Source of the DNA: a virus
Reading direction: 5' to 3' (one strand)
DNA: 50,520 nt
Virus record (IMG/VR): IMGVR_UViG_3300027896_000060
Coordinates: 1-50,520 of that record
Positions 5,501-24,427 of this stretch are shown here, piece after piece (position 1 is the first letter of the stretch; each line of letters starts with the position of its first letter). The notes under the pieces were generated by a model. It was not told the DNA's origin. It did no database searches and worked only from the letters and a program-made list of their open reading frames with translations. The position numbers were made by a program, and so were the translations under genes.

Positions 5501-7513
5501 ATGGCGACGAGCCTTGCCGACCGTGCCAAGCGCATTCAGCTTTTCCAGACCGTGTCCGATCTCCACGCGGCGGGGAAGATCTCCCTCTCCCGACAGGACA
5601 AGTCTCGCATCGAGGCGGAGACGCGGGATCTCATCGAGAAGTCTCTTCGCAACCGGAGCGCCGCGAAGGCTCCCGAGGGCTTCGAGATGGTCCTGGACGA
5701 GCTTCGCGCTGCTCCTGACGCCGACGCGGCCTACGAGGTCGTGGTCAGCTTCCTGAAGGAGCACGACCTCCTGGAAGGCGAGAAGGACGAGGGCGGCGAG
5801 AAGCCGAAGAAGGCTCCTCCGTCCGAGAAGGGCGAGACCAAGGAGCCCGAGGAAGGCGAGTCCGAGGAGCACGAGAAGTCCGAGTCTCCCGAGGAGGAGA
5901 AGGCCGAGCACGAGCCCCCCAAGGGAATCGAGGACGAGGCGGACAAGGCCAAGGACAAGAAGCCGCCGTTCGGCAAGGACGAAGACAAGGGCGGCAAGCC
6001 GCCGTTCGGTGGCAAGGGCCCCGACAAGGGCGGCAAGCCGCCGTTCATGTCCGGGAAGCCCGAGATGCCGAAGGGGGGACCTGCGGATATGCCCGAGGGC
6101 AAGGAGGCTCCTCCGTTCGGGGACAAGGACGAGATGAAGGAGGCCCGCAGCGCCGTTCTTCGCCGCGCCAAGGAGCAGGAGGAGAAGAAAGGCATCGGCG
6201 GGCTCCAGGAGACGCGCGAGAAGGTGAAGACCCCGTCTTCGGAAGAGATGGGCATCGAGGAGGCGAGCGACATGACGATGGGGATGGAGCAGGGAGTGCG
6301 GGCCAAGAAGATCAGCGTTCGCATCACCCCCGGACGGAATCTGGTCGTGGCGCACGCGGATCACGGTCCGATCTTCTACGCCCAGCCCTCTCCCGAGTAC
6401 CGGAGGGACCTGATGGTCCTTCAGCGGCTCGCCAACAAGATCTACGGCATCGCGGTCTACCAGGGGCTCAAGGCCGCCGCCGCGTACTGCAAGGCGGATC
6501 TCCTGAAGACGGCGGGAGTCGATGACGACATCACGACCGTCAACCGGGACAAGGACATTCCGCCCGAGACGAAGGGTGTCACCGAGGACGCGGAGGACGT
6601 GAGCGTCCAGGAGCGCAAGGACAAGCCGGGCACTTCGCAGGATGACGTCGATACCGTGACCCAGGAGAAGCCGGACGACAGCGCGAAGAACGTCAAGACC
6701 GACGTGATCGCGAAGCGCAGGGCAGAGGCGCTCAAGAAGGCGCGGGCGCGCTTTCTGGCGAAGCAGAAGCAGGGCCTCACGGTCCTCGACGGCAACGACA
6801 CGGTGACCCAGGAGAAGCCCGACAAGGCCGAGAACGACTCCGGCAAGGGCGCGGCGGACGTGGCCGAAGAGGATCCGAAGGCGAAGCCGGGATCGGTCAT
6901 CGACGATCAGGCGGACGTCATCAGGACTGAGGCTTCCGCGAACCTCAGCGTGCTCTACAAGAACCGGGCCGCCCAGCGTGTCGCGGCGGAGAAGGAGGCG
7001 TTCGTTCGCCGCTTCGTCCGTGCCGCGCGCATCGCGGCGACCCGGATGCTCCTCAACCACGACGAGCATCCGATCAAGTCGGCGGCCATGGACGTTCTCA
7101 CCTCGGAGAACGTCGTGTTCTCGAACGGCGAGAAGTTCGCGAGCATGGACGAGAGCACGGCCGTGGAACTCATCGAACTCATCGCGTCGGAGGGTCACAC
7201 CGCGTTCATCAATCGGCTGCTCGAAAAGGCAGCCGATCTTCTGGAGAAGGACGACCGCTATCTCACGGACGTGGAGGCCGATCTGAAGAGTCTGGCTCCC
7301 GTGCCCGTGAGCGTCGGTCCCGCAGTGGCAAGGTCCGCTGGGTCTCCCCGCCAGCAGCGCAGCGCCAGTGTTCGGCGCGAGGCTGCCGAAGGGAACTTCA
7401 GCACGAAAGGTAACGGGGCACCCGCTTCCAGCCCCAACAACAACGGTGGTCTTCGCGAGGCTCTCGGCGGAAGCACCCTGCTGGGTCGCAGGATCGGCAG
7501 GATTCAAGGCTGA
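5501..7513 (+). CDS. Probable internal scaffold / prohead core protein
   Basis: This 670-residue protein follows the protease by 12 bases. Residues about 85-230 are low complexity, dominated by Glu, Lys, Pro and Gly with repeats such as KGGKPPF. A short motif TVTQEKPD occurs twice (about 384 and 430). The ends are predicted helical with many Ala, Arg and Lys residues. Strongly charged, extended core proteins next to the protease are typical of prohead scaffolds, which are cleaved and expelled before DNA packaging. An alternative is a retained internal head protein. No catalytic motif was seen. Confidence 0.6.
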   Translation: MATSLADRAKRIQLFQTVSDLHAAGKISLSRQDKSRIEAETRDLIEKSLRNRSAAKAPEGFEMVLDELRAAPDADAAYEVVVSFLKEHDLLEGEKDEGGEKPKKAPPSEKGETKEPEEGESEEHEKSESPEEEKAEHEPPKGIEDEADKAKDKKPPFGKDEDKGGKPPFGGKGPDKGGKPPFMSGKPEMPKGGPADMPEGKEAPPFGDKDEMKEARSAVLRRAKEQEEKKGIGGLQETREKVKTPSSEEMGIEEASDMTMGMEQGVRAKKISVRITPGRNLVVAHADHGPIFYAQPSPEYRRDLMVLQRLANKIYGIAVYQGLKAAAAYCKADLLKTAGVDDDITTVNRDKDIPPETKGVTEDAEDVSVQERKDKPGTSQDDVDTVTQEKPDDSAKNVKTDVIAKRRAEALKKARARFLAKQKQGLTVLDGNDTVTQEKPDKAENDSGKGAADVAEEDPKAKPGSVIDDQADVIRTEASANLSVLYKNRAAQRVAAEKEAFVRRFVRAARIAATRMLLNHDEHPIKSAAMDVLTSENVVFSNGEKFASMDESTAVELIELIASEGHTAFINRLLEKAADLLEKDDRYLTDVEADLKSLAPVPVSVGPAVARSAGSPRQQRSASVRREAAEGNFSTKGNGAPASSPNNNGGLREALGGSTLLGRRIGRIQG

Positions 7514-7548
7514 GGCAGCACGAGGACGGAAGGTAACGGAGGAACACC

Positions 7549-8307
7549 ATGTTCAACCCGAGAGTGGAAGCCTTCAGGGTTTCGACCCGAGCAATCGGAA
7601 TCGACCTGATGCGCTCCCAGGTAGGGCGAAACCTGGGGATCTACGTGGCCAACCCCACGACGACATTCCGCGCAGGAATGCTGGTGTCGCTGAACGCGGC
7701 CCAGGAAGTCGTGGTGTGTGACGGCGCGCAGCCCTTCGGATTCGCCAAGTACACGAAGGCCAACACGCTCTTCGCCGCCATCGTGGACGAGCGCGTGCAA
7801 CTGACCGGCGTGGGATTCCACAACCTGAAGCACGCGGGCCTCTTCACCCCCGGTGTGACGGGCGGCGCGAAGGTGACGAGCCTCGCAGGCGCACCGTACA
7901 CCGAGGCGGCCGACTTCAACATGAACTACATCAACGGTCAGATCCAGCGCATCGGTGGCGGTCTGATCGCGGATGGCCAGATCGTGCTCGTGACCTATCA
8001 GTATCAGGTCACGGAGCAGGAGTTGAAGTTCGAGGGGCGCAACTTCTGGAACTTCATCAACGACGTGGACATCCAGGGTGGGAAGGTGACCGTGATCAAT
8101 GACTGGTCGTTCATCTGGACGACGCAGTTCGATCCGACGCAGGCCTACGCGGTCAACGACACCCTGAACGCAGGGCTGCACGCCAACGCTCTCGACGGTC
8201 TCGTGACCAAGGGCGGCGGCGGGGCATTCATCGGCAAGGTCTTCCAGCCCCCGACGGCGGACGATCCCTTCCTGGGGATCCGCTACGTCGGCGGTATGGT
8301 CAGCTAG
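7549..8307 (+). CDS. Virion protein upstream of major capsid (possible capsid decoration)
   Basis: This 252-residue, mostly beta-type protein is preceded by GGAGGAACACC and ends 15 bases before the major capsid gene. It is rich in Val, Gly, Asn and Thr and has no signal peptide or membrane segment. In many phages a small head-stabilising or decoration protein is encoded here. The family is not recognised, so decoration is inferred from position only. Confidence 0.6.
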   Translation: MFNPRVEAFRVSTRAIGIDLMRSQVGRNLGIYVANPTTTFRAGMLVSLNAAQEVVVCDGAQPFGFAKYTKANTLFAAIVDERVQLTGVGFHNLKHAGLFTPGVTGGAKVTSLAGAPYTEAADFNMNYINGQIQRIGGGLIADGQIVLVTYQYQVTEQELKFEGRNFWNFINDVDIQGGKVTVINDWSFIWTTQFDPTQAYAVNDTLNAGLHANALDGLVTKGGGGAFIGKVFQPPTADDPFLGIRYVGGMVS

Positions 8308-8322
8308 GAGGAGGGCAACATC

Positions 8323-9567
8323 ATGAAAACGACGAACCCCTACAAGCGCATCGCTCAGGACCGTCGGCCCGTCTCCACGCGGACTGCCAGCAGGGCCGAG
8401 GACAACACCGACAACACCAGGACGCCCCGCCCCGTGGCGGCCCGTCCCAGGAGCACCTTCGCCTCGAAGCGCGACGAGCGCCTCTTCGAGGGCGGCGGCT
8501 CCTTCAACCCGCAGCGGTACGACACCCCGTCGAGCCGCACCGCGACGGCTTCCCGCACGGACCGCCGCATGTTCGACAAGGCCGGTCAGGTCAACGCCAT
8601 CGACAAGCGCGATGCGATGGTGCAGATCCACCACCTCCTCAACGAGGTGACGAAGAAGAACGCCTCGGCGCTCTCCTTCTACCGGCCCGACACCGAGTCG
8701 AAGATCTCGAAGGACGCGAAGCGCGACATCCTCGCGGCGGCGCTGACGGATCCGACCGGACAGGGCTTCCACATCGTCGGCCAGGAACTCGCTCTGCCGA
8801 TCAAGGTCATCCTCGACTACGAGGGCTTCGCCCGCAAGGTGTACCGCGTGCGGAAGCTCGCGCAGGCGGAACTCTTCCGCATCCCCGTGGACGTCCGTTC
8901 GACGGCGTTCGTCGTGGGCCAGGACGGCCAGACCCCGGAGAGCCGCATCAAGACGAAGTGGATCACCCCGCCCGAGTGGAAGGTGACGAGCTTCCCGAGC
9001 ATCGACATCCAGGACATCTACCAGATGAACTTCGATGTGCTCGACAGGGCTCAGGACACCGCGCGGCAGGAGATCGAACTCCAGGAGGACAAGGCGGGCA
9101 TCGCGCTGATCGACGAGGCGGCTCAGGCCGTCAACTCGGTCACCACGTTCGGCTCGCTGGGCATCGTGGCCTTCGAGTCCGTGCGCTATCAGGTCGAGCG
9201 CCACCGGCTCATGGTCGAGAACTTCCTCATCAGCCGCGCCGAGCTTTCGGACATCGTGACCACCATGAGCACCCTGGTGGATCCGGTGACCGAGCGCGAA
9301 CTCCTGCTCGCGGGCTACATCGGCAACATCCTGAACGCGCAGATCCTCACGGCGGCCGGTACGGGCGTCGAGGAGGTCATCCCGGCCGGTACGTTCTACG
9401 CCACGACGGGCGCGGACTACATGGGCGAGATGGGCATCCGGATCGAACTCTTCAGCGAGCCGTACAACAAGTACGTCCTCCAGGAGACGGTGAAGGGCTG
9501 GGCCTTCATCGAGATGATCGGCTTCGGAATCGCGAACGCGAGGGCGTGCGCGAAGGGCTCGAAGTAG
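8323..9567 (+). CDS. Major capsid protein (HK97-fold type)
   Basis: This 414-residue protein has a strong AGGAGG ribosome-binding site. Residues 1-95 are basic, polar and probably disordered, resembling a delta region that a prohead protease could remove. The remaining roughly 320 residues have the alternation expected of an HK97-type capsid: a long helix-rich segment (DTARQEIELQEDKAGIALID), a loop with YEGFARKVYRVRKLAQ, and a C-terminal segment ending in a hydrophobic strand (WAFIEMIGFGIANARA). It stands in the canonical place after protease and scaffold, and a stable hairpin follows it. Highly regular, GC-ending codon use fits high expression. Confidence 0.85.
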   Translation: MKTTNPYKRIAQDRRPVSTRTASRAEDNTDNTRTPRPVAARPRSTFASKRDERLFEGGGSFNPQRYDTPSSRTATASRTDRRMFDKAGQVNAIDKRDAMVQIHHLLNEVTKKNASALSFYRPDTESKISKDAKRDILAAALTDPTGQGFHIVGQELALPIKVILDYEGFARKVYRVRKLAQAELFRIPVDVRSTAFVVGQDGQTPESRIKTKWITPPEWKVTSFPSIDIQDIYQMNFDVLDRAQDTARQEIELQEDKAGIALIDEAAQAVNSVTTFGSLGIVAFESVRYQVERHRLMVENFLISRAELSDIVTTMSTLVDPVTERELLLAGYIGNILNAQILTAAGTGVEEVIPAGTFYATTGADYMGEMGIRIELFSEPYNKYVLQETVKGWAFIEMIGFGIANARACAKGSK

Positions 9568-9583: not shown

Positions 9584-9610
9584 GGCCCCGGTGCCTGCGA
9601 CACCGGGGCC
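9584..9610 (+). terminator. Perfect 10-bp hairpin after the major capsid gene
   Basis: GGCCCCGGTG (9584-9593) and CACCGGGGCC (9601-9610) form a perfect stem with a 7-base loop, 16 bases after the capsid stop. No T-run follows, so it may be an attenuator, an mRNA 3'-end stabiliser that raises capsid expression, or the first stem of the structured RNA that follows, rather than a classical intrinsic terminator. Confidence 0.6.
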
Positions 9611-9629
9611 TGATCCGCTTCGAGTTCTC

Positions 9630-9685
9630 TAACCCCGCTACGGCGGGAGGCGGGTTAAGACCCTGGCACGGAGAGCAAAACCGTG
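9630..9685 (+). ncRNA. Structured leader, possible remnant of an IscB omega RNA (HEARO-like)
   Basis: Two stems are visible. CCCGC (9634-9638) pairs with GCGGG (9643-9647) around a TACG loop. CACGG (9667-9671) pairs with CCGTG (9681-9685), which includes the GTG start of the PLMP reading frame. IscB-family genes are normally preceded by a structured omega RNA, so an RNA directly before a PLMP domain is suggestive. Only about 115 bases separate the capsid stop from the GTG, which is short for a complete omega RNA. The first hairpin, with its flanking TAAC and AG, recurs at 23140-23158. Confidence 0.4.
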
Positions 9686-10510
9686 GACACGAGAGATGAC
9701 GACCGGGTTCCTGTTCTGGGCTCGGACGATTCTGTTCTCTCCTACACACACCCCGCCAGGGCACGAAAGCTGTGCAAGGCCGGAAAGGCTCGTGTCGTAA
9801 GCACGGAGCCTTTCGCTATCAAACTGGGGCACGACCCCAAGGAGGACAGAGTCATGACTACGAGCATCATCACGAACTTCACCGAGTATTTCCGCGAGGA
9901 GCGCGAGGTCTTCGTCCAGAACACGAGCCAGGGGCAGGTGGCGCTCCAGTTCGAGATCGCCCCCGGGCGCATCGAGCCGCTCATCCTGCCGCGTGGGAAG
10001 GACCCCATCAACCTGTCGCAGCGCGTCCCCTTCCTCGCGATCAAGAACTCCATGGACCTGCGGCGGCTCGTCAATCGCCGCCCGCCCGCGCTCACGCTCC
10101 TCTCCGAGGAGGAGTTCATCGCCTACTACGACAGCAAGGCGAAGGAGGCGGGCATCACGACGGCGGACGCCATGGATGAGGCCGAGCGCAAGCAGTTCGC
10201 TCTCCAGAACAGGCAGGCGGAACCTGCGGCTCCTCGCAAGACCCTGGAGCAGCTTGCCGACGAGCGCAAGGCCGAGCCCCAGAGCCCCGAGGAGCGCCTC
10301 ACAGCGCGCGTGGCGGGCCTGTGCGCCAGCGTGGGCGACGACGTGGACGAGAAGGATCGCATCCCGGCTCGCGAGATGCTGGACGAACTGAAGGGCCTCA
10401 ATCTCACCACGGCGGATCTGGAATACCTCCTGGGCCACGGCTACTACAAGACCATCAAGCAGTTCGCTCAGAAGCAACTGGAGTCCCGCACGACCGGCGC
10501 AGAGGGCTGA
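9683..10510 (+). CDS. Virion-cluster protein with N-terminal IscB-type PLMP (RRXRR) extension
   Basis: The frame opens at GTG 9683 (275 residues), but ATG 9854 has a much stronger ribosome-binding site (AAGGAGG, spacing 8) and would give a 218-residue protein. Residues 1-57 are the PLMP-like extension. The remainder is a mixed alpha/beta domain (about 58-150) followed by a helical charged part (150-275) with Leu-rich heptads near 240-268. Its place right after the major capsid gene suggests a head or connector component, but I do not recognise the fold. Both a long fusion and a short form could be made. The core gene is secure; the long start is uncertain. Confidence 0.65.
   Translation: MDTRDDDRVPVLGSDDSVLSYTHPARARKLCKAGKARVVSTEPFAIKLGHDPKEDRVMTTSIITNFTEYFREEREVFVQNTSQGQVALQFEIAPGRIEPLILPRGKDPINLSQRVPFLAIKNSMDLRRLVNRRPPALTLLSEEEFIAYYDSKAKEAGITTADAMDEAERKQFALQNRQAEPAAPRKTLEQLADERKAEPQSPEERLTARVAGLCASVGDDVDEKDRIPAREMLDELKGLNLTTADLEYLLGHGYYKTIKQFAQKQLESRTTGAEG
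9707..9826 (+). other. PLMP / RRXRR domain (IscB N-terminal domain) without nuclease
   Basis: Residues 9-48 of the long frame match the N-terminal domain of IscB/IsrB/IshB proteins: VPVL, then THPARARKL, GKARVV and PFAIKL in the correct order and spacing. The eponymous PLMP tetrad is degenerate (VLSY). No RuvC or HNH segment follows; the frame runs straight into the phage gene. This is either a decayed fragment of an IscB-type element or a domesticated RNA-binding domain. Confidence 0.75.
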
Positions 10511-12160: not shown

Positions 12161-13075
12161 ATGATCATCCAGCCCGGTACAGAACAGCCCTCGGTGGCGA
12201 ACATGATCGAGCTTGCCCGCATGGGGGGCAAGCGCCGGGTCAACGTCGAGCTTCGTGACGAGTCGGGCAGTCTCGTGGACATCGACGCCACCCAGGCTGC
12301 CGACGGCTCCGCGCGCGGGGAGTTCGACCTCCAGGTGACGAACGTCGGGGGCTACCCCATCTACACCGAGGCCTTCTTTCCGGATCCTCCCCCGGTGAAC
12401 CCCCGCATCACCCACAGGGGCACTGGGCTCTACGACCTCACCTGGGGTGAAGGGCACGAGACCGCGTGCCCTGGGACGTACCTGTTCAACTGGCACTCCC
12501 GCCAGAACGAGTCCTCCGAGGACGTCTACCGGACCCAGGTCATGGAGATCATTTCTCCACGAGTCTTGTCGCTCTTGCCGCGTCTGCGGCTGATGCTCGA
12601 CAAGGTTGTGAAGCCTAACTGGCCCCAGAAGATGTGCTTCCTCGGCTACACCGACGGGATGCTCATCCTGTACCTGGAGCTTGGTTTGAGCCTCATCAAC
12701 CAAGCGCAGCCCTATCCGACGTTCGTCAATCTCGACGCCTTCCCCATCGAGATGTTTTCGGACATCTTGATCAAGTCGGCGATCTACGAGGGAGTGACGA
12801 GTCAGCTTCTGTTCGCCGTGGATACCGATGTCCCGCAGTTCTCGGATCAGGGCCACTCCTTCGTTCTTCAGCACGCGAATCCTCTGGCTGCGTACCTGTC
12901 GCACCTCAAGCAGGAACTGGATGCGGCCATCCCGAACTTCAAGAGGCATTTTGTGAACAGCGGGACGCTCGGTGCCGAGGTGAGGCTCGACATGGCCTTT
13001 AGTATGCTGCTCGCAAGTGCCCCAAATGGTTCACTTTTTCGTAATCTATGGGCCGGAGGAACTTCTCCGGGCTGA
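12161..13075 (+). CDS. Probable neck/connector virion protein (304 aa)
   Basis: This 304-residue protein starts three bases after the preceding gene. Residues 1-120 look like an Ig-like or beta-sandwich domain (FDLQVTNVGGYPIYTEAFF, GLYDLTWGEGHE). Residues 125-304 are mostly helical with hydrophobic segments. It ends in AGGTSPG with a clean stop and no sign of having been cut by the adjacent endonuclease gene. Its place between capsid and sheath suggests a neck or connector component, but no family signature is visible. Confidence 0.6.
   Translation: MIIQPGTEQPSVANMIELARMGGKRRVNVELRDESGSLVDIDATQAADGSARGEFDLQVTNVGGYPIYTEAFFPDPPPVNPRITHRGTGLYDLTWGEGHETACPGTYLFNWHSRQNESSEDVYRTQVMEIISPRVLSLLPRLRLMLDKVVKPNWPQKMCFLGYTDGMLILYLELGLSLINQAQPYPTFVNLDAFPIEMFSDILIKSAIYEGVTSQLLFAVDTDVPQFSDQGHSFVLQHANPLAAYLSHLKQELDAAIPNFKRHFVNSGTLGAEVRLDMAFSMLLASAPNGSLFRNLWAGGTSPG
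13053..13070 (+). promoter_or_regulatory. Hairpin over the Shine-Dalgarno before the HNH gene
   Basis: CCGGAG (13053-13058) pairs perfectly with CTCCGG (13065-13070) around a 6-base loop. The stem contains the GGAG that would otherwise serve the HNH gene at 13083. Homing endonuclease genes in phages often have late transcripts silenced by such hairpins, so low translation of the nuclease is a plausible role. Confidence 0.45.
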
Positions 13076-13082
13076 TGTGATC

Positions 13083-14084
13083 ATGGGCACGAAGGACATA
13101 AAGACTTGTACGAAATGCAAGCAGGAAAAAGACCCTGCTACAGATTTCGACAAGCATCCTCGCGGACATAACGGGATCTCTTCTATCTGCAAGGAGTGCA
13201 GGAGGAAGAAGGCTCGCCGCCTCTATCTCAAGAACAACGCGGACAGGTCACGGCGTCCTCCAAAACTTAGCGACGAGGAGTTGTCTTTCAGGAATGCAGA
13301 AGGCGCTAGGAAATGGAGGGAGTCTCTTGGTGAAGAGGAGTACGCGCGTCGTCGTGCGGAGAACTACAAGAAGAACCGAGAGAAGATTCTTCTTCAGCAG
13401 CGCGCAGGTTGCGCGATACGCAGGGAGCAGATTGCCGCACGGAACAAGGCGTGGCGAGAGAAAAACCAAGAATACGCGCGTCAAAAACAGGCCGAATGGC
13501 GTGCCGCGCATCCGGACTACAATACTGCCGAGGCTCGGCGTCTTCGCGCCGAGAAGCGGGCAAGCGCCCCACAGAAGCCTGTTCCGGTTCGTATGCCGCG
13601 CGAGAAGAAGCCGTACACGCAGCGCAGGAATGAGTACGCGCGCGAGAAGGGGCGCACAGATCCGAACGCACATGTTTGCCGCGTTCTTCGCACCCGCCTT
13701 TCGAAAGCCGTTCGCGGCGAGGTTCGCTCCGGCTCCGCCGTTCGTGATCTCGGCTGTTCTGTGGAGCAGCTTCGTGAATACCTGGAGGCCCAGTTCTACC
13801 CGCACCCTCTCACAGGGGAGGAGATGACCTGGGCGAACCACACCTCGAAGGGCTGGCACATCGACCACGTCGTTCCTCTCGCTGCTTTCGACCTAACAGA
13901 TCCTGAGCAGTTGAAGGCCGCCTGCCACTTCACGAACCTTCAGCCGATGTGGTGGTTCGAGAATCAGGAGAAGAAGTCGCGGGACGCGAGGACGCCCTTC
14001 TTCTCGCACCAGCTTCTCACTCCGCAGACCCTCCGCGCTCTCTACACGGCTGTTCTTGCTGAGGACGCGCAGGTGGCCGCATGA
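13083..14084 (+). CDS. HNH homing endonuclease with N-terminal zinc ribbon
   Basis: This 333-residue protein (from ATG 13083, just past the previous stop; GTG 13077 is an alternative) has an N-terminal zinc ribbon (CTKC, then CKEC), a long basic Arg/Lys-rich helical linker (about 45-200) and a C-terminal HNH nuclease domain. The nuclease core is HIDHVVPLAAF, then NLQPMWWFENQEKKSR, with the His-Asp-His and Asn/His positions of the beta-beta-alpha-metal fold intact. Such genes are free-standing homing endonucleases that cut related phages lacking them. It stands between two virion genes, is preceded by an RBS-hiding hairpin, and overlaps the next gene by ATGA. I see no intron borders. Confidence 0.88.
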   Translation: MGTKDIKTCTKCKQEKDPATDFDKHPRGHNGISSICKECRRKKARRLYLKNNADRSRRPPKLSDEELSFRNAEGARKWRESLGEEEYARRRAENYKKNREKILLQQRAGCAIRREQIAARNKAWREKNQEYARQKQAEWRAAHPDYNTAEARRLRAEKRASAPQKPVPVRMPREKKPYTQRRNEYAREKGRTDPNAHVCRVLRTRLSKAVRGEVRSGSAVRDLGCSVEQLREYLEAQFYPHPLTGEEMTWANHTSKGWHIDHVVPLAAFDLTDPEQLKAACHFTNLQPMWWFENQEKKSRDARTPFFSHQLLTPQTLRALYTAVLAEDAQVAA

Positions 14085-23131: not shown

Positions 23132-23186
23132 TGTCGGTTTAACCCCGCGATGCGGGAGAAAGGAGCGAAAGCTCATGACACCGACA
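23132..23186 (+). promoter_or_regulatory. Structured 5' leader overlapping the tail chaperone start
   Basis: Three stems are visible: CCCGC-GAT-GCGGG at 23144-23156; GAGC-GAAA-GCTC (GNRA-type tetraloop) at 23163-23174, ending directly before the ATG and containing part of the Shine-Dalgarno; and an outer TGTCGG/CCGACA pairing (23132-23137 with 23181-23186) that encloses both hairpins and the start codon. Such a fold should regulate initiation. The first hairpin resembles the one at 9634-9647. Confidence 0.55.
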
Positions 23187-23723
23187 GTTCCGAACCCGCG
23201 ACAGATTCTCATGGACCTCTCCCGTGAACTGGGGGGTGATCAGTTGGAGACCGTCGTCTCCTACAAGAACTTCACCTTCAAGATGTGCCTCCTCAACGAG
23301 GAGGAGAGCAACTGGCGCAACGGCTTCATCAACATGGGGACGAAGCTCTCCACGGTCACGTCCTGGAGGCTCCCGACGCTCGCCATCGGCATTCGCGAGA
23401 TCAACAGCGTTCCCGTGCCCGAGTTCTTCCGCCCCGAGTGGGAGGCCACCGAGGCGACGAGGCAGGCTCTGGCGGTCATCGAGGGCAAGGGCAAGTACAC
23501 GCTGAAGTACTTCGCGGCGGAGTACCTGATGCAGTTCCTGTCGCAGTTCCCCCCGGAGCCTCTGGAAGACCTGTACGCGGAGTACCAGAAGCTCGAAGCC
23601 CGACGTGAGGAGGCGTCGGGTGCCATAAAAAAATCCTCTGGGGAGAGTTCGGAGAAGGATACGAAGAGCAGTGGGACCGAACTTTCCCCGTCTGGCGAAG
23701 GCTCGTCTCCCGCCTCCAGGTAA
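23175..23723 (+). CDS. Tail assembly chaperone, short form (G-like)
   Basis: This 182-residue protein sits between tube and tape-measure genes and is the zero-frame product of a frameshifted pair, like lambda G. Residues 1-145 are compact and mixed alpha/beta; the last 35 are Ser/Lys/Glu-rich and disordered, which is expected for a tail translated after the shift site. At codons 152-153 ribosomes meet the heptamer A AAA AAA and can slip into the -1 frame to make a 417-residue fusion. The short form is predicted to be the more abundant one and to coat the tape-measure proteins during tube assembly. Confidence 0.85.
   Translation: MTPTVPNPRQILMDLSRELGGDQLETVVSYKNFTFKMCLLNEEESNWRNGFINMGTKLSTVTSWRLPTLAIGIREINSVPVPEFFRPEWEATEATRQALAVIEGKGKYTLKYFAAEYLMQFLSQFPPEPLEDLYAEYQKLEARREEASGAIKKSSGESSEKDTKSSGTELSPSGEGSSPASR
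23627..23689 (+). promoter_or_regulatory. Programmed -1 ribosomal frameshift signal
   Basis: The heptamer A AAA AAA (23627-23633) is in the phase required for tandem slippage (zero-frame codons ATA AAA AAA). After a 6-base spacer, GGGGAGAGTTCGG (23640-23652) pairs with CCGAACTTTCCCC (23677-23689) in a 13-bp stem with one G-U pair and a 24-base loop. The -1 frame is open from the slip site to the end of the downstream gene. All elements of a textbook signal are present. Confidence 0.93.
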
Positions 23724-24427
23724 AGGCGAAGATCCTCACTCGGAGGAACTTGCCTGTAGGAGATCCTCGGCTGCGGGACATGAACGATACCCAGTGGGCG
23801 TTCGAACTGTGGTCGATGAACAAGCAGGACGAGGAGCGGTTCAAGGAGATGGAAGCGATGGTCGAAGTGGTGGAGGGACGCGTGGCTCGGGCCTTGGGGA
23901 TCGATCTGATGCCCATCGAGGACTCCGAGACGCACCTTCTCCGTAGGCCCGAGCGAGGGGAGTATGTGCCCTTCCTCATCGCTGCCGGTAGAGAAGACTT
24001 CGTCAAGATGCTGCTGGAGAAGAGGCAGGAGTTCGCGACTCAGGAAGAAGTTCGCTCCCAGATGGCGTCCGGTGCCGGGGTTCAGGATGGCGCGGAGGAA
24101 ATGAGTCCTGAAGAGCTTGAGAAGTTCATGCAGGGGGACGCGGAATCCGGAAACACTCCGGAAGAGTTGAAGAAGCTCATGTCGTGGGGCAGCAAGACGA
24201 ACCAGCTTCTTCTGGAGAACCTCGTGCTGGCCAAGGAAGACGTGGATCAGGCGGATCCGCTGGAGCAGAAGTCCGCGAGGACCATCGGTAAGGCCCGTCG
24301 GGACCTCATGCAGCAGTTCCAACCTCCAGCAGGGGATCTGATGTCGGTGAAGCTCGTGTCCGACTCTCCTCCCGACGAAACTCCTGTCCAGCAAGATCGA
24401 ATCAAGATCGTTCTGAAGGACGTGTAG
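23633..24427 (+). CDS. Tail assembly chaperone, frameshift extension (T-like part of GT)
   Basis: This -1 frame adds 264 residues to the first 153 of the upstream protein, giving a 417-residue fusion. Directly after the shift it encodes ILWGEFGEGY and WDRTFPVWRRLVSR, so coding continues across the region a simple gene call would leave empty. Independent starts at TTG 23750 or ATG 23780 are possible but poorly supported. The rest is helical and charged (KQDEERFKEMEAMVEVVEG, SPEELEKFMQGD). In lambda the T part contacts the tube subunit while G binds the tape measure; the same division is inferred here. Confidence 0.85.
   Translation: MLWGEFGEGYEEQWDRTFPVWRRLVSRLQVKAKILTRRNLPVGDPRLRDMNDTQWAFELWSMNKQDEERFKEMEAMVEVVEGRVARALGIDLMPIEDSETHLLRRPERGEYVPFLIAAGREDFVKMLLEKRQEFATQEEVRSQMASGAGVQDGAEEMSPEELEKFMQGDAESGNTPEELKKLMSWGSKTNQLLLENLVLAKEDVDQADPLEQKSARTIGKARRDLMQQFQPPAGDLMSVKLVSDSPPDETPVQQDRIKIVLKDV

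Follow-up and report, generated by a model that had tools for sequence, protein, structure and literature searches.

An IscB-type PLMP domain in a capsid-neighbour protein of large phages and a tandem hairpin at two virion genes: a candidate translational regulator

Why would a phage carry the PLMP (RRXRR) domain of IscB and IsrB at the head of a virion gene, with structured RNA upstream of it and no nuclease attached? The question is raised by IMG/VR record IMGVR_UViG_3300027896_000060, of which positions 1-50,520 were analysed on one strand; this whole stretch of 50,520 nucleotides is called the window, and all features given below lie on its plus strand. Our answer, to which we give about an even chance and which was drawn from sequence comparison, is that the domain has been domesticated, with the nuclease lost, and now binds RNA to regulate the translation of two virion genes, both of which have a hairpin element.

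The PLMP domain and its fusion to a capsid-neighbour gene

Directly 3' of the major capsid protein gene (8323-9567; phrog_2522 major head protein, E 3e-57) we found an open reading frame (ORF) of 275 aa from GTG 9683 to 10510. Residues 9-55 of its product match Pfam PF14239 (RRXRR) with E 9.4e-9 and 35.8 bits (curated cut-off 25 bits). The NCBIfam model guided_IscB matches the same residues with E 7e-8, a score far under the whole-protein cut-off of that model because only about 43 residues match. The extension occupies 9683-9853 (domain proper 9707-9853), and its frame continues stop-free into the C-domain of the capsid-neighbour gene (9854-10510), which has an internal start at ATG 9854 behind the Shine-Dalgarno sequence AAGGAGG (9839-9845) and matches phrog_17686, a family of unknown function (E 4e-7). 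A preliminary description of this DNA had claimed a PLMP/RRXRR domain beginning at GTG 9683, a stop-free run into a strong start at ATG 9854 and the absence of RuvC and HNH; the profile searches and the Shine-Dalgarno sequence agree with it on all three.

The RRXRR match spans profile positions 1-49 of 174, and those of true IscBs of other phages span 1-174 or 1-165. The match thus ends at position 49, and Pfam recognised nothing in the remainder of the protein, neither a RuvC domain with bridge helix nor the HNH domain, which is found only in IscB. The PLMP motif of strand 2 is replaced by VLSY, which aligns with the PLMP of TbaIscB. The preliminary description had also implied an omega RNA upstream, and this did not survive the search with the HEARO/omega RNA models, which gave no match at E up to 10 and 144 bits on a true IscB locus. 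With RuvC, HNH, omega RNA and PLMP motif all absent, the fusion protein is neither IscB nor IsrB, and it may still work like their PLMP module. The layout of a PLMP domain with structured RNA upstream is OMEGA-like and could be taken for a functional OMEGA-type system in two separate parts, nuclease and guide RNA being supplied in trans. We regard this as very improbable, considering the empty HEARO search and the 12 contigs of relatives (up to 212 kb), each of which contained only one RRXRR domain above cut-off, that of the fusion; a nuclease without RRXRR, or one of the host, was not searched for.

Relatives were gathered with the capsid protein as bait, giving 27 IMG/VR loci. The same in-frame fusion exists in about 17 distinct relatives with roughly 30-62% identity to the window protein, and the phages carrying it all fall in one clade. 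The isolate record Rctr197k has the same fusion with a diverged domain (18.6 bits, under the Pfam cut-off). Two distant relatives (L030 and L032) have the C-domain gene without the PLMP domain, starting at the position of the internal ATG of the others, as recognised by eye.

Beyond this clade the searches returned little. PF14239 gave no match in Motura, Lu11, HRDY3, BcepSauron or phage G, and among cultured phages other than Rctr197k only weak matches to an orphan PLMP domain were seen, one of which (L002) is a true IscB. Scans with the PLMP domain of one relative (L016) alone, and of IMG/VR with the window protein alone, gave nothing. A scan of genome contigs gave one contig only, equal in length to one in IMG/VR, and in the open-access literature searched we came across no paper describing an orphan RRXRR domain from a phage. 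The contig of one relative (L066, QMZE01000009.1) was binned into an Archaeoglobales metagenome-assembled genome, which may reflect an unusual host or erroneous binning; it has 17,766 bases, as has L010 of IMG/VR.

The PLMP domain is under purifying selection. The ratio of nonsynonymous to synonymous change (pN/pS) was 0.37 for the PLMP domain and 0.41 for the C-domain, with pN below pS in 55 of 55 pairs. These values bear on the other possibility raised in the preliminary description, that a decayed IscB insertion happens to lie in frame. The match to only the first 49 of 174 RRXRR positions is what such a remnant might leave, but every close relative keeps the in-frame fusion, even at an identity of about 30%, pN/pS is as low as that of the C-domain and the predicted fold is confident, and decay was rejected on these grounds as almost certainly wrong.

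In the AlphaFold2 model, residues 9-48 form a beta-beta-alpha-beta-beta fold, predicted with good confidence, and are joined through a disordered linker (54-61) to a C-domain that stands apart. In a Foldseek comparison of the PLMP fold with PDB, IscB and IsrB ranked first, followed by IF3 and its N-domain; no match reached E 0.001, and the top four had probability 1.00. A likeness to the IF3 N-domain was also reported for the PLMP domain of IsrB (PMC9581776), and one might speculate that the phage domain binds the ribosome as IF3 does and biases the initiation of late mRNAs, the hairpins being incidental or cooperating. This is improbable in our judgement, since the structural IF3 matches are weak (E 0.26 and worse) and a Pfam search at E up to 1 gave RRXRR only and no IF3 profile. 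The C-domain has a predicted fold resembling jumbo-phage proteins of 203-246 aa in BFVD, for example of PaBG and Motura.

Every relative has an in-frame internal start at the junction, nearly all with a recognisable Shine-Dalgarno sequence, which reads AGGGAGG in most relatives and is GATCCCAGGGAGG in the main clade, kept at synonymous positions. Strong synonymous constraint was found at two stretches of the gene only, this Shine-Dalgarno sequence and the GCC AGG within the P-A-R-A codons. The conservation of the internal Shine-Dalgarno sequence and start suggests that ATG 9854 is the ancestral start and is still used, the PLMP domain being an N-terminal extension from an upstream start. From the sequence it is therefore likely that the gene yields a pair of products in the same frame, a PLMP form beginning at GTG 9683 and, from ATG 9854, the C-domain by itself.

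A tandem hairpin at two virion genes

Between the capsid gene and the PLMP domain (site A) we found a tandem hairpin with the consensus ACCCCGC-loop-GCGGGAG followed by a 4-bp hairpin. In the window, the first hairpin (H1, 9634-9647) is CCCGC-TACG-GCGGG followed by a conserved AGG, and the second (H2, 9652-9663) is GGGT-TAAG-ACCC, read by eye, the alignment having it shifted by one column. The covariance model of this leader, R2, matches 9627-9672 with E 3.7e-17, the window itself having been in the model. Across 13 sequences, 96.6% of alignment cells pair and five of the nine base pairs have changed on both sides, including all four pairs of H2 among the relatives; 0 of 500 shuffles reached the observed pairing or covariation, and controls slid along the alignment paired in at most 53%. 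Three distant relatives keep the two hairpins with a different sequence.

The 3' strand of H2 is part of CCCTGGC (9661-9667), which is complementary to GCCAGGG (9755-9761) in the P-A-R-A codons, where GCC AGG is synonymously constrained. This eight-pair helix and H2 are mutually exclusive. The helix pairs in 88.5% of cells and has both-side changes in two pairs (in L011 against its sister L013, and in L051). In relatives only, the 3' strand could also pair with the CCAGGG of the internal Shine-Dalgarno sequence. With partners that exclude each other, the 3' strand of H2 could form a possible switch. A longer stem that would cover the start codon of the PLMP form was considered too and rejected: by synonymous resampling it is strong in L016, L012, L018 and L020, and it is supported neither in the window nor generally.

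Three upstream hairpins had been described before, and they fared differently. That at 9634-9647 is H1, conserved with covariation. That at 9584-9610 (H0) is a strong hairpin after the capsid gene which folds and keeps its position in relatives with variable sequence; it looks like a terminator-type hairpin and is likely a terminator or attenuator between the capsid and PLMP genes. That at 9667-9685 can fold in the window, and no counterpart of it was seen among the relatives. Two features had been missed, the conserved hairpin at 9652-9663 and the further copy of the element that lies at 23142-23174. Equivalents of H0 are seen in most relatives, with a T run after the hairpin in the AT-rich ones. 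In one relative (L022), about 1.7 kb (6272-7952) with small unrelated ORFs separates the capsid gene from the PLMP fusion gene, and two hairpin-like stretches (ACCCTAAGTC...GACTTAGGAG) still adjoin the capsid gene.

The second copy (site B) was found by the leader covariance model at 23137-23184 with E 1.9e-4, and the element itself, 23142-23174, abuts ATG 23175. Its H1 (23142-23158) has a stem of 23144-23148 with 23152-23156, then AG; it is followed at 23160-23174 by the Shine-Dalgarno sequence AAGGAG and H2 (GAGC-GAAA-GCTC; folding z -2.9), with the Shine-Dalgarno sequence sitting in the 5' strand of H2. In relatives the element stands at the same gene, and over nine sequences H1 is paired in every cell (100%) and shows compensatory changes. 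The model finds the second sites of relatives weakly, so what supports site B is its position, its sequence and H1.

The gene behind site B (23175-23723) encodes 182 aa and is the proposed target in trans. It is overlapped by a -1 frame (23609-24427), with the heptamer A AAA AAA at 23627-23633 in the window and in most relatives. This arrangement makes a tail assembly chaperone pair expressed by programmed frameshifting (23175-24427) probable; family searches with the 182-aa protein gave no match to confirm it.

The pattern ACCCCGN{2,14}CGGGAG has exactly two matches in each of seven records, where both lie on the same strand and belong to the two genes named, and the reversed pattern as control has 0-1 match per strand in the same seven. 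One further record (G001) has both sites plus three other matches, and another (G008) has site A plus one unrelated match, its site B having diverged. None of eight relatives without the PLMP domain, three of them partial records, has the pattern. A wide regulon was rejected given two sites per genome, and other matches of the covariance model in these genomes are weak. The earlier proposal that the domain had been domesticated together with structured RNA thus gains good support in one part, with the RNA found again at another late gene, which is what a regulator would require, and loses the omega RNA.

A putative regulator of head-side and tail-side synthesis

The published structure of IsrB shows its PLMP domain bound to SL7/SL8, tandem hairpins close to the omega RNA 3' end, and in contact with the Shine-Dalgarno sequence in SL7; its authors suggested a control of IsrB expression (PMC9581776). 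In IscB it recognises the terminal hairpins of the omega RNA, mainly without sequence dependence (PMC9640706). Here, a PLMP domain has been kept together with a tandem hairpin next to a start codon, without the nuclease, and the hairpin stands at a second virion gene also, which favours a translational regulator. Conserved RNA structure lies at the ribosome-binding site of the proposed target, as in an operator (at site B the Shine-Dalgarno sequence is included, the ATG is abutted and H1 covaries), and each genome has two sites, one of which is at the PLMP gene itself.

We may picture the course as follows. An IscB/IsrB-type PLMP domain would have been fused, in a single clade of large phages, upstream of the start of the capsid-neighbour gene, and retained as a putative RNA-binding module while the nuclease was dropped. 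The gene would make both the C-domain alone and the PLMP form, and the latter may bind H1-H2 at its own gene and at the start of the probable tail assembly chaperone gene, where it would make the hairpins more stable and thereby reduce initiation, both on its own mRNA in cis (autoregulation) and on the other in trans. Whether H2 forms at site A may choose between alternative mRNA folds, its 3' strand having a partner in the coding region. We infer the RNA binding and the sign of the regulation from this analysis; the regulator probably acts as a repressor in cis and in trans, because the site B hairpin contains the Shine-Dalgarno sequence. A more elaborate form, which we think rather unlikely, is an assembly-coupled switch, in which the C-domain would sense free versus assembled capsid-side protein and the free form would repress its own and the tail-chaperone mRNA via the tandem hairpin.

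Several observations weigh against a regulator of this kind. The PLMP-RNA contacts in IscB are mainly sequence-independent (PMC9640706), so the specificity required here would have to be new. H2 of site B pairs in 61% of cells only over the nine sequences, being weak in several relatives and absent from two AT-rich ones. The CCCUGGC/GCCAGGG pairing rests on few compensatory changes, and the internal Shine-Dalgarno sequence of the window (CCCCAAGGAGG) is unable to pair with CCCUGG, unlike that of relatives. Several records without the PLMP domain are fragments, and the co-occurrence of domain and RNA is limited to one clade, so that shared ancestry explains it too.

On this last point the hairpins could be cis elements of translation or processing on which the ribosome, an RNase or some other factor acts, while the PLMP domain does other work such as nucleic-acid binding in the virion, the two occurring together through the ancestry of one clade. 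We hold this to be a serious possibility, though one that probably does not apply. Both sites stand at late genes beside start codons, H1 of site B is GC-rich even in a relative of 34% GC, and the PLMP phages are a single clade, all of which suits it. What speaks instead for the translational regulator is that each genome has exactly two sites, of which one belongs to the PLMP gene, and that PLMP domains have a published affinity for tandem hairpins next to a start codon. If the binding is true, this regulator would show what a PLMP domain does alone, would back the suggestion, made for IsrB (PMC9581776), that RNA binding in OMEGA systems is tied to the control of translation, and would be a two-target regulon linking the synthesis of head-side and tail-side proteins in large uncultured phages.

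Neighbouring genes and comparison with known systems

Two other genes of the window contain endonuclease-like sequences. The ORF at 15-2954 (979 aa) resembles portal proteins over residues 56-297 and matches LAGLIDADG over residues 564-621; the portal gene probably contains an intein or a homing endonuclease. Within the virion gene cluster, the endonuclease VII-like ORF at 13017-14084 (355 aa) is possibly a free-standing homing endonuclease.

The phage protein is like IscB and IsrB (OMEGA, PF14239) in the sequence and predicted fold of its first 50 or so residues, and in layout, the tandem hairpin lying just upstream of the reading frame as the terminal hairpins of the omega RNA do there. It differs in that RuvC, HNH and the omega RNA core are lacking, the PLMP motif is of LSYT type (VLSYTHPARAR against NPLMPTHPAKAR in TbaIscB), the domain is fused to a capsid-neighbour gene and the hairpin occurs also at a second gene. 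With the IF3 N-domain it shares a weak fold similarity, and has neither a sequence match nor the IF3 C-domain. The jumbo-phage proteins of PaBG, Motura and relatives have the C-domain fold and, by their length, no PLMP extension. The MS2 coat protein, T4 RegA and T4 gp32 are translational repressors that bind an operator hairpin at the start codon. The logic proposed here is like theirs, a late or structural protein acting in cis and in trans on RNA structure over a ribosome-binding site, with the differences that the RNA-binding part would be an OMEGA PLMP domain and that the regulation in these phages is putative.
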